56,938 bases of DNA, from the NCBI GenBank assembly GCA_017451915.1, contig JAFTNJ010000017.1, positions 1 through 56,938 of the forward strand, given 5' to 3'. The stretch is from Clostridia bacterium (GTDB taxonomy: Bacteria; Bacillota; Clostridia; Oscillospirales; CAG-272). Positions 6,774 to 29,433 of this stretch are shown here, piece after piece. Both the position numbers and the translations under genes were made by a program. The notes under the pieces were generated by a model, which did not search any database, was not told where the DNA came from, and saw only the letters and a list, made by a program, of their open reading frames with translations. Within the stretch, counting starts at the first letter, position 1. The number at the start of each line of letters is the position of its first letter.

Positions 6774-8609
6774 TCAAATGGTCTTCTTGTAGCAGGGACC
6801 GTAGGTAGCGCAGGCGCGGTAGTCCTGGCCTTCCTTGTCCATGCCAAAGGCATTCCAGCAAGCAGGACGGTAGATGTCCTCCTCGGGGACGTTGTGCATA
6901 CAAACGGGAATGCGGAGCATGGAGCACATGGTGATCAGATCGGCACCAATGTGACCGTAGGAGATGGCACCGTGGTTGGCACCCCAGTTCATCATCACCT
7001 CGTAGGCGGTCTTGAAGGCAGAGCCCTCCTTGCCGTCACAGCGAGGAGCAAACCAGGTGCAGGGCCAGGTGGGATTGGTTCTTTCCATCAGGGTGTCGTT
7101 GACTTCCTTGGGCAGGTTCACCGTCCAACCCTCGGCGATCTGGAGCACGGGACCCAGTCCCTTCACCAGATTCAAACGGATCATGGTGCAGGGCATCTCG
7201 GCGTAGGTATCAAAGTGGCTGGAGAATCCGCCGCCGCGGAAGTTGTCAAAGCCGGCCTCGCACCAAACGGTGGCGTCGGTCATCTTCTTGATATCCTCCT
7301 CGGTAACCTCCCACCACTTTTTCATCACGGCGTTGCCGTTCTCGTCGGTGCAAACGCCCGAAGCGTCAAGGCAAGCGGCACCCGAGTTGAGCAGGTGGAT
7401 GATACCGTCGGATTCGGCGGCCTTACCGGTGAGCTTGTAGCCGGTGACGCGCTCGGTTGCCTCGCCCGACCAGTAGGTACGAACGTCGGCAAAGATCTGG
7501 GCGCGGTGGGTCAGCAGACGCATCATCAGCATGCCCATGCCGTTGAGAACGTCGTTCTCGGTGGCAAGAGTGAAGGGCTCACGGGCGCCGTTGTGGTCAA
7601 AGGTAGAGGAGAGCAGAGCCTCGGGGTAGTCGCAGTTGGGCCAGTGGTCGGTCCACTGTCTCTGTCCCTGGAAGCCGCCGGCAATGGCGTTGTGACCGAT
7701 CTTTTCTTCCTCAAAGGCATCGGGAAGATCGGGATTGCCTGCCATCAGATCCTTGATGATGCAGTACATCTTGACGGTGAACTCCCATTGCTTTTCCTTT
7801 TCTTCTTTGGTAAACTTGATCTTGCGCTCCTCGCCCAGGAAGTTTACGCTTTCGGGGTTGTCGTCGCGTCCCTCCTTGCAGTGCTCCTTGGTCCAAGCCA
7901 GAGCCTTCTGGAACTCTTCCTCGTTGTAGATGCCTTCCTCCATACGGCGAAGGATCTCTACCTCGTCTACCGATTCCACGCGCATACCAAAGTAGGATTC
8001 CATCATGTCCTGATCAATGATGGATCCGGCGATACCCATGCACTGGGAGCCGATCTGCAGGTAGGATTTGCCGCGCATGGTAGCAACAGCGATAGCCGCG
8101 CGACCAAAGCGGAGCAGCTTTTCCTTCACGTCCTCGGGAACCTCGTTGACCTGGTCCAGATCCTGAACCTCGTGGCCGTAGATACCAAAGGCGGGCAGAC
8201 CCTTCTGGGCGTGACCGGCCAGAACGGCGGCAAGATATACTGCGCCGGGACGCTCGGTGCCGTTAAAGCCCCAAACACCCTTGATGGTCATGGGATCCAT
8301 ATCCATGGTCTCGGAGCCGTAGCACCAGCAGGAGGTAACCGAAAGGGTAATGGAAACGCCCTCCTTGCGGAATTTATCAGCGCAGGCGGCGGCCTCGGGA
8401 ACACGTCCGATGCAGGTGTCGGCCAATACGACCTTTACCGGCTCGCCGTTGGAATAGAACAGGTTTTCCTCAAACAATTTCTTTGCGGCGTTGGCCATAG
8501 CCCAAACGGTGGGCTCCAGGGATTCACGGAGCATCATCGGGCCGCGGCGGCCGTCAATACAAGGACGAATACCAATGACGGGATAATCGCCTACATATCT
8601 GTTTTTCAT
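6774..8609 (-). CDS. fucI: L-fucose isomerase
   Basis: A 611-residue protein matching the L-fucose isomerase family in length (about 590-610) and sequence: an N-terminal GIRPCIDGRRGPM segment, the ADTCIGRVPEAAACADKF region, CWCYGSETMDMDP, the WGFNGTERPGAVYLAAV motif and a C-terminal HNVPEEDIYRPACWNAFGMD. It interconverts L-fucose and L-fuculose (also D-arabinose and D-ribulose) in a Mn2+-dependent reaction, the first cytosolic step of fucose catabolism. No fuculokinase, aldolase or fucose permease is present in the window. It is transcribed alone and diverges from an AraC regulator, which probably controls it. GGAGGAGAAA precedes the ATG. Confidence 0.95.
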   Translation of the reverse strand: MKNRYVGDYPVIGIRPCIDGRRGPMMLRESLEPTVWAMANAAKKLFEENLFYSNGEPVKVVLADTCIGRVPEAAACADKFRKEGVSITLSVTSCWCYGSETMDMDPMTIKGVWGFNGTERPGAVYLAAVLAGHAQKGLPAFGIYGHEVQDLDQVNEVPEDVKEKLLRFGRAAIAVATMRGKSYLQIGSQCMGIAGSIIDQDMMESYFGMRVESVDEVEILRRMEEGIYNEEEFQKALAWTKEHCKEGRDDNPESVNFLGEERKIKFTKEEKEKQWEFTVKMYCIIKDLMAGNPDLPDAFEEEKIGHNAIAGGFQGQRQWTDHWPNCDYPEALLSSTFDHNGAREPFTLATENDVLNGMGMLMMRLLTHRAQIFADVRTYWSGEATERVTGYKLTGKAAESDGIIHLLNSGAACLDASGVCTDENGNAVMKKWWEVTEEDIKKMTDATVWCEAGFDNFRGGGFSSHFDTYAEMPCTMIRLNLVKGLGPVLQIAEGWTVNLPKEVNDTLMERTNPTWPCTWFAPRCDGKEGSAFKTAYEVMMNWGANHGAISYGHIGADLITMCSMLRIPVCMHNVPEEDIYRPACWNAFGMDKEGQDYRACATYGPCYKKTI

Positions 8610-25415: not shown

Positions 25416-26198
25416 TTAGTACAGCTTATATTTCAATCTCAAATTATCCGCGATCATCGCGATGAACTCACTATTCGTGGGCTTTCCTCGGTTGTTTTGA
25501 ATGGTGTACCCAAAATACGAATTGAGCGTATCCACGTCGCCCCGATCCCAAGCCACCTCAATGGCGTGACGGATGGCGCGCTCTACACGGGAGGTGGTGG
25601 TACTGTACTTTTTGGCTACGCTGGGGTAGAGGACCTTGGTAACGCTGTTGATGATGTCGCTGTCCTTAATGGTGAGAAGAATGGCAGTACGCAAATACTG
25701 GTAGCCCTTGATATGAGCGGGAACGCCGATCTGGTGAATGATCTGGGTCACCTGGGTTTCAATGTCCGGCTCCTTGCTCTCGGCTTGCATGGCCGATGCG
25801 GGAAGGTCTCTCTGCCGTCGGGAGAGAATGCTTTGAATGTGCTCGGCCAAGCTGTTGATATTCACCGGCTTGATCAGGCAGAGCTCAGCACCGGCCTCGG
25901 TGGCCTGAATAAAGACGTTTTGGTTAGAGACCGAGGACATGACGATGAACACCGGTTGCTTGCCCTGACCGCGATCCATGGCGCGACAGCTTCGCAGCAC
26001 GCCGATGCCGTCCAGCTTGGAGAGCCAGACCTCCATCAAAACCACGTCGGGACAAAAGCGGGAGATCTTCAAAAGGGTGTCCTCGCCGTTGGAGGCTTCC
26101 TCCAGGTTGCGGTAGCCAAGACGGTGCAGTCCGTCCCGTATGGCGGCGCGACCGTTGGCGTTTTCGTCTGCGATCAGGATCTTTGTAGTGTATTCCAT
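25416..26198 (-). CDS. spo0A: Sporulation response regulator Spo0A with Glu at the phosphoacceptor site
   Basis: A 260-residue Spo0A, the master regulator of sporulation. Residues 1-125 are a receiver domain and about 150-260 the Spo0A-specific DNA-binding domain ([16 protein letters not shown] near its start, [18 protein letters not shown] as recognition helix region, [14 protein letters not shown] at the end). The acidic pair Asp11-Glu12 and the conserved Lys (IKPVN) are present, but the phosphoacceptor is Glu56 (codon GAG, complement of 26031-26033), where Spo0A normally has Asp, and the following proline is replaced. The protein may therefore be constitutively active or controlled without phosphorylation. 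GGAGG precedes the ATG. It stands alone; spoIVB is not adjacent. Confidence 0.93.
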
Positions 26199-26277: not shown

Positions 26278-26318
26278 CTCGACAGGAATATTTTACCATA
26301 TTTTGGAAATTTTTGCAA
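26278..26318 (-). promoter_or_regulatory. spo0A promoter with a near-0A box
   Basis: On the minus strand: TTGCAA (26313-26318), 17 bases, TAAAAT (26290-26295). Just downstream of the -10 lies TGTCGAG (26278-26284), one base from the 0A-box core TGNCGAA, which would allow autoregulation. Confidence 0.55.
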
Positions 26319-28800: not shown

Positions 28801-29433
28801 TTAAAAAGGCGCTGCAGAGGTAATGTCCTCGTCGTCGTCATCCTCGTCGTAATCGTAGGCGGCGCGTTTGGCGGCTTTGGCGGCGCGTTTGGCCTCCTTT
28901 GCGGCACGCTTGGCGGCTTTGGCATCCTGCTTTTCCTCTTTTGGCGTTGCGGGAACCTCTACCGAAGCCAGCTCAACCTCCAGCTTTTTGGAGATCTCCT
29001 CCTCCTTCTTTTGGATCTCCTCCTCGCTGGGGGAGGAATCCTTTCCGTCCCCGGAGAAGGCACTCATGATGCGGCGGATCAGATCCGGTGCCTGATCCAG
29101 CAGATCAAAGACCTGCTCCACGGGACCGCTCTTTTCCTGGGAGATCGGCAGCATTTCCACCTTCCCCTCGGGGGAAACGATCAAAAAGCCGATGGGGGAA
29201 ACGCTCACGCCGGTTCCGCCACCGCCGCCAAAGTTCTTGGCACCGTTGCTGTTTTTGCTTGGCAGATCCAGTCCTCCCGAGGCAAATCCCATGGAAAGCT
29301 TGGAGATGGGAATGATCACCGTGCCACCGGGGGTCACGATCTGCTTTCCAACAATGGTATCGGCATCAATAAAGGTGCGGATCTGTTGCAGGGAATCGTT
29401 GATGATGTTTTTGATAGAAGATTCGTTTTCCAT
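28801..29433 (-). CDS. gerW: GerW/YtfJ-family sporulation protein with a charged tail
   Basis: A 210-residue protein. Residues 1-105 match the GerW (YtfJ) family of spore proteins needed for germination in Bacillus: an N-terminal helix, then VGKQIVTPGGTVIIPISKL and a Gly-rich stretch (GGGGGTGVSVSPIGFLI). The tail is unusual: a Glu-rich helix (about 137-152), an Ala/Lys/Arg repeat (171-192, of the KRAAKEAKRAAKAAKRAA type) and an Asp/Glu cluster (194-203). It lies between DUF2953 and dacF, the usual order. It is cytoplasmic with no signal peptide. Confidence 0.88.
   Translation of the reverse strand: MENESSIKNIINDSLQQIRTFIDADTIVGKQIVTPGGTVIIPISKLSMGFASGGLDLPSKNSNGAKNFGGGGGTGVSVSPIGFLIVSPEGKVEMLPISQEKSGPVEQVFDLLDQAPDLIRRIMSAFSGDGKDSSPSEEEIQKKEEEISKKLEVELASVEVPATPKEEKQDAKAAKRAAKEAKRAAKAAKRAAYDYDEDDDDEDITSAAPF

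Follow-up and report, generated by a model that had tools for sequence, protein, structure and literature searches.

Glutamate at the Phosphoacceptor Position of Spo0A in a Clostridia Bacterium and Recurrent Replacement of the Receiver Aspartate in Its Order

Introduction

According to the available text of PMC11210211, all endospore formers start sporulation through Spo0A, which is activated by phosphorylation at a conserved aspartate. In surveys, the presence of spo0A serves as an initial indicator of the capacity to sporulate (PMC11536998, in the part available). The window analyzed here, a stretch of 56,938 nucleotides from a Clostridia bacterium, encodes a Spo0A in which this residue is a glutamate. 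Is this protein still a working regulator, and if so, what could switch it? The window belongs to a metagenome-assembled genome (MAG) of 2.2 Mb in 79 contigs, 87% complete, which we call G000. We compared its Spo0A with those of its genus, its order and its class, and we examined the sporulation genes, kinases and promoter elements that bear on how it might work.

Results

The spo0A gene and its receiver pocket

The first-pass annotation described an otherwise intact gene in which Glu (GAG) replaces the phosphoacceptor Asp and the other pocket residues are preserved, and all of this holds. The translation runs for 260 amino acids without an internal stop, and residue 56 falls in an alignment column that is Asp in 31 of 33 genus sequences. 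Asp11, Glu12 and Lys110 are present, as is Ser88, so the further loss of pocket residues that is common but not required in pseudo-receivers is absent. The protein matches both the DNA-binding and the receiver profiles (Table 1) and scores 258.1 bits on the whole-protein equivalog model TIGR02875, where the cut-off is 200. Its DNA-binding domain, which is matched by PDB entries 1lq1 and 1fc3, is 94–99% identical to those of the genus sequences compared. In PDB entry 9xzo, a designed CheY-like protein, an Asp aligns with Glu56.

Table 1. Features of the spo0A locus in the window (positions of the whole stretch).
Feature	Position	Strand	Evidence or remark
spo0A, 260 aa, intact, Glu at the phosphoacceptor position	25416..26198	-	Translation and profiles
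Receiver domain, residues 7-122	25833..26180	-	PF00072, 59.6 bits
Codon 56, GAG (Glu)	26031..26033	-	Asp (GAC or GAT) in 31/33 genus sequences
Asp11-Glu12, acidic pair of the pocket, retained	26163..26168	-	
Lys110, conserved pocket lysine, retained	25869..25871	-	
Cys107, three residues ahead of Lys110	25878..25880	-	Tyr/Phe in 48/48 controls
Spo0A_C DNA-binding domain	25440..25751	-	PF08769, 157.8 bits
Putative sigma-A-like promoter, extended -10, TTGCAA-N17-TAAAAT	26290..26318	-	Consensus match only
GerW/YtfJ-family sporulation protein (candidate)	28801..29433	-	98 bits, under the cut-off of 116

The G000 protein thus lacks the Asp that defines the phosphoacceptor of Spo0A, and it is an aspartate-less receiver in the sense of a profile-recognized receiver whose phospho-Asp has been replaced. 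Judged on its sequence, it is a Spo0A by descent but does not belong to the usual phosphorylatable type, because residue 56 is Glu. Its activity would then not be set by Asp phosphorylation, which is what characterizes a pseudo-receiver.

A second unusual residue is shared more widely. The aromatic switch residue of receivers stands three positions before the pocket Lys. This position is Cys in 33/33 genus sequences and Tyr or Phe in 48/48 sequences from outside the order, so the alignment marks the Cys107 change as a trait of the genus and its kin rather than of G000's species alone. The 48 control sequences come from the same class and comprise the 28 highest-scoring sequences plus 20 chosen for family spread among 114 matching genomes; one non-Spo0A receiver was dropped. 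Because of this choice the set leans toward canonical members, and lower-scoring families (e.g., f29, f31, f35, f36, f68 and f70) fall outside it.

Residue 56 within the genus

Spo0A was found in 32 of 35 genus genomes, with no Spo0A-level match in G023, G027 or G033. Residue 56 is Asp in 31 of the 33 sequences from these 32 genomes and Glu in the other two, those of G000 and G015. Among 80 named loci, a set that overlaps the genus set, there are 79 Asp and one Glu; the latter is record L096, which corresponds to G015. NCBI taxonomy places 26 of the 80 in Oscillospiraceae and gives no family rank for 54, and the nearest named records of G000 are mostly MAGs from ruminant gut labelled Oscillospiraceae or Clostridia bacterium. 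The order is probably Oscillospirales.

Since Glu and Asp differ here by a single base in the third position of codon 56, and the nearest relatives of G000 have Asp, the residue could in principle stem from a fault of assembly or consensus calling, or from a minority strain, in a genome reconstructed from metagenomic reads. We consider this very improbable, since Glu also occurs in a genus MAG that belongs to a different clade and in 29 of 137 genomes from the rest of the order, in nine families.

In a codon tree from which codon 56 had been excluded, G015 groups with the Asp species G019 and G008 to the exclusion of G000 (support 100/97). A topology constrained to unite the two Glu rows is worse by 28 log units, with an AU p of 0.048 that is borderline taken alone. 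Because G000 and G015 are not sisters on this tree, Glu56 most likely arose twice in the genus. The check proposed earlier, whether Glu56 is fixed in a clade, came out negative: Glu occurs in single species placed apart, and the nearest relatives have Asp. We rejected Glu56 as a clade-fixed trait on the same grounds (2/33 sequences, in non-sister species, with Asp in the clade-mates of G015).

The receiver is still under constraint. Conservation across the genus reaches at least 90% at 62 receiver sites. Residue 56 is the sole one of these at which G000 departs; G015 departs at two and G002 at three. NG86 estimates of receiver dN/dS, which are rough because many dS values exceed 1, were 0.06, 0.13 and 0.16 for three pairs involving G000, 0.10 for two pairs involving G015, and 0.035–0.10 for eleven pairs involving neither, so constraint is perhaps slightly weaker in the G000 pairs. 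These numbers bear on the possibility that sporulation is being lost in G000's species, with Glu56 inactivating a Spo0A whose remaining sequence has not yet decayed. The higher values in two of the three G000 pairs would fit such a loss, as would the three genus genomes without a Spo0A-level match; continued constraint, with residue 56 alone deviating among the conserved sites, argues against it.

Several other irregularities were seen in the genus and its relatives. In G002 (L008:1501-2280), Asp56 is kept and Asp11 has become Ala, so that the pocket is damaged by another route. G025 carries two different Spo0A genes (L006 and L058), one of them near-identical to that of G022 (L035), and the bin may be mixed. 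In G001, a 72-aa open frame (L092:10133-10348) about 3.4 kb downstream of the full gene repeats the end of Spo0A almost exactly, and similar tail fragments occur in G004, G006, G022 and G028, some of them at contig ends. Receiver-less Spo0A_C frames were found in G031 (L024:2621-3007, 129 aa), G158 (L318, 122 aa) and G072 (L317, 150 aa). That of G031 sits about 340 bases after the full spo0A, and that of G072 is the only Spo0A_C match in its genome among the matches listed.

Residue 56 across the order

The order search covered 147 genomes, at least 90% complete except for G000, and 137 of these had a Spo0A match. The set used for counting also numbers 137, all outside the genus and with a readable receiver: 134 from the order search plus G036, G047 and G059. 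G000 is counted apart. Receiver-less or truncated sequences (G046 and G072, which have no receiver), the second ORFs of G031 and G158, a fragment from G081 and nine second Spo0A copies (Asn, Ser, Gly and six Asp) were left out, and further second matches (e.g., G161:C27, G066:C2, G151:C7 and G077:C66) also lie outside the counts. Genome counts are counts of genomes, not of independent events, except where a tree or a family count is given.

Residue 56 was Asp in 94 of the 137 genomes, Glu in 29, Asn in 10, Thr in two, Ser in one and Trp in one; in G185 it falls in a gapped stretch of the alignment, and its state there is uncertain. Asp56 is therefore missing from 43/137 genomes of the order versus 0/48 outside it (Fisher p 5e-7, uncorrected for kinship). 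The erosion extends to the pocket as a whole: the acidic pair, Asp56 and Lys110 are all kept in only 37/137 order genomes, compared with 47/48 outside the order (Fisher p 1e-19, likewise uncorrected). One genome, G039, has two full-length Spo0A copies (L052 and L056), both with Asn56 and both without the pocket Lys.

Replacement of the Asp has recurred. In 15 of the 23 families in the order set, at least one member from outside the window's genus has a residue other than Asp; nine families have Glu, and eight are mixed for Asp and Glu. On a FastTree phylogeny of 218 rows from which columns 11, 12, 56 and 110 had been removed, at least 18 changes between Asp and Glu and 25 between Asp and non-Asp are needed. 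Under parsimony, Asp was lost 22 times, in 15 cases to Glu, and was apparently regained five times. These event counts are rough, since the tree is a FastTree of a short protein and the reconstructed returns may be tree error. The Glu share of 15/22 is higher than the 26% found in aspartate-less receivers at large (p 4e-5). Under a general amino-acid exchange model, about 46% of Asp replacements would be expected to be Glu, as a rough estimate, and against this figure the excess is slight (p 0.03).

Both members of the acidic pair are kept in 1/29 Glu sequences of the order versus 40/94 Asp sequences (p 3e-5, a plain count). The other 28 Glu sequences have lost one of the two acids, while G000 and G015 keep both. 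We do not claim a link between Glu and loss of the acidic pair because the association loses its significance once shared descent is taken into account (independent pairs 0.3 versus 3.7, median p 0.25).

Sporulation genes

In G000, the gene order spoIIAA-spoIIAB-sigF and spoIIGA-sigE is kept. SpoIIAB (183 bits, cut-off 135) and SigE (345.7 bits, cut-off 339) score above their profile cut-offs, and SpoIIAA (96.8, cut-off 114.75), SpoIIGA (103.7, cut-off 209.55) and SigF (230.8, cut-off 321.45) score below them. The genome also has SpoIVA (674.6 bits), a SASP gene (106.7 bits), SpoIIP (172.5 bits) and a weak SigH-like gene (80 bits). Retention of SpoIVA, SASP, SpoIIP, the spoIIA operon and spoIIGA-sigE argues against ongoing loss of sporulation.

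The earlier suggestion to look for sporulation sigma genes thus succeeded in part: sigF and sigE are present, and sigG was not found in this 87% complete genome. A SigG-like gene scores above 350 bits in 29 of the 35 genus genomes, none of them above the curated 457; the profile search did not find sigG in G000, G015, G006, G017, G027 or G033. That it was found in neither Glu genome of the genus counts against a maintained switch and fits sporulation loss, and it is weak evidence because G000 is 87% and G015 71% complete. When the flanks of the sigG region of G009 were searched for, the rnpB side (rnpB identified by eye) was located in G000, followed by other genes. The adjacency seen in G009 is not kept in G019, where the two lie on different contigs, so the flanks carry little weight on whether sigG was deleted in G000.

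Dispersed repeats of about 150 bases are present in many copies per genome (G000, G027, G019 and G015), most at 72–88% identity, with example sites at L218 ~8107-8277 and L182 ~6900-7150. A palindrome with TGTGTCGCA arms and a TAAAAATGT core, recognized by eye, lies upstream of spoIIAA in G000. One with the same arms and core stands between spo0A and the receiver-less frame of G031; both may be copies of the dispersed repeat.

The order set was profiled for SpoIIP only, and SpoIVA, SigG and SASP were profiled on 60 relatives. SpoIIP is kept in 37/42 non-Asp and 85/92 Asp genomes of the order (Fisher p 0.52), so a tie between loss of Asp and loss of sporulation genes is not seen with this marker, and retention that is not clearly different speaks against decay of the pathway. 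In the set of 60, seven non-Asp relatives lie outside the genus (G038, G039, G042, G044, G047, G050 and G052). SpoIVA is over its cut-off in 7/7, a SigG-like gene of 381–439 bits is present in 7/7, and SASP is present in five, the exceptions being G042 and G047.

Gene presence does not prove sporulation. G044, an Asn56 genome that may be Ethanoligenens harbinense YUAN-3, is without SpoIIP, as sporulation loss would predict. Ethanoligenens is called non-spore-forming in the available part of PMC7268672, and a table of non-sporogenous strains in PMC3533761 lists spoIIP for E. harbinense YUAN-3, in the portion available apparently among missing genes. Oscillibacter valericigenes offers a case of genes without detected spores: Spo0A and sporulation sigma factors are present, and spores were not detected (PMC3558957, available text). 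Weighing these points together, we regard loss of sporulation in G000's species as rather unlikely, although it is the most serious of the alternatives.

Kinases, promoter and 0A boxes

Each of the five HisKA kinases found in G000 lies within 1.5 kb of a gene for a response regulator, as do 14/14 in five genus relatives, four of which have Asp56. An unpaired HisKA kinase was therefore not found among the 19 in these six genomes, for the HisKA class searched and with G000 at 87% completeness. We rejected a tie between Glu56 and a lack of orphan kinases: the kinase finding does not explain Glu56 because the Asp species look the same. On the earlier idea that the sporulation phosphorelay may be absent, the HisKA class searched thus shows nothing that is tied to Glu56.

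It is also conceivable that the receiver is still phosphorylated, whether a different residue is used or Glu56 affects nothing but its tuning. Receivers can use neighboring phosphorylation sites. In G000, Ser88, Lys110 and both acids of the pair are in place, and Asp51, Ser60 and Asp63 are near residue 56 in sequence. We think continued phosphorylation improbable, since the same acyl phosphate would not be expected on Glu, the HisKA kinases found in the six genus genomes include none that is unpaired, and across the order it is the whole pocket that erodes, not Asp56 alone.

A sigma-A-like promoter pattern precedes spo0A at 28 of the 29 genus loci examined (Table 1 gives its position in the window). 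Control by expression, which the first-pass annotation had raised, would fit this conserved pattern. No conserved 0A box was found upstream of spo0A in the 29 genus loci, and upstream of spoIIAA, spoIIGA and spo0A in G000, matches to the 0A-box core were within chance.

Discussion

We lean, by a narrow preference, toward reading the window's gene as a real and maintained Spo0A that is unable to take phosphate at the normal site, and as one case of a pseudo-receiver conversion repeated across the order. Once Asp is gone, formation of the usual acyl phosphate is not to be expected, and in this geometry Glu should not give the same one. Phosphorylation of this Spo0A in the cell would thus be lost.

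How such a protein might work can be sketched. Spo0A would be made from a vegetative sigma-A promoter, and its receiver would serve as a dimerization and partner-binding module. Glu56, held by Lys110 and Ser88, would give a constant state that partly mimics phospho-Asp, and the signal would be the amount of protein, its dimerization or a partner, not a kinase. We propose a dimerization or partner module because no acyl phosphate is expected, no orphan HisKA kinase was found in the genomes searched, the promoter is sigma-A-like and there is no conserved 0A box at the genus loci.

It is doubtful that Glu alone makes Spo0A always on. In the available text of PMC4395418, the change from Asp to Glu is described as not enough on its own to activate Spo0A or make it constitutive, a result credited to Green 1991. 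In the order sequences, the lost acidic residue of the pocket could be the second change needed beside Glu. G000 and G015 may be early stages or impaired: the Glu56 of G000 may be recent and unadapted, because its acidic pair and Lys are kept while 28/29 order Glu sequences have lost one acid.

A bolder reading, which we consider less likely than not, is that much of this order of gut Clostridia starts sporulation with a Spo0A on which phosphorylation no longer acts as a switch in any way. Input from the relay would have been lost many times and the spore-gene output kept, with Glu favored as a partly active end state and control left to how much Spo0A is present or to some new ligand or partner. 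If these bacteria do sporulate, about a third of the sampled order (43/137) without the Asp but with sporulation genes would mean that the input is replaceable, and the non-Asp proteins would constitute a natural experiment on the purpose that receiver domains serve. Since eight families hold both Asp and Glu members, the effect of residue 56 can be tested in matched pairs. For surveys of sporulation potential, the practical point is that the presence of spo0A does not imply a phosphorylatable Spo0A.

Comparison with known systems

No report of a natural Spo0A without the phosphoacceptor Asp was found among the matches listed in a search of open-licence titles and abstract openings, a scope that most subscription journals fall outside, and the available part of PMC6136694 makes no mention of one. 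The G000 protein shares with Spo0A as modeled by TIGR02875 the domain order, the DNA-binding domain and several downstream sporulation genes. It differs in having no phosphoacceptor Asp, as do 43/137 order relatives, and in the Cys three before the pocket Lys.

Initiation by orphan kinases, as described for clostridia in the available text of PMC11210211, is shared at the level of the class Clostridia, and the same text notes that no phosphorelay is reported in Ruminococcaceae. In contrast to that system, 19/19 HisKA kinases in the six genus genomes are paired.

Aspartate-less receivers and pseudo-receivers, such as RitR and ChxR, are an already known kind, with which the G000 Spo0A shares the missing Asp and a Glu in its place. 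Among aspartate-less receivers, Glu is the commonest replacement (26%), the second acidic residue is often lost and the Lys is often kept (PMC4395418, available text). The differences lie in frequency and in the pocket: 2.0% of receivers lack the phosphoacceptor Asp (PMC12632262, in the part available), as opposed to 43/137 here within a single orthologue, and G000 keeps the rest of its pocket.
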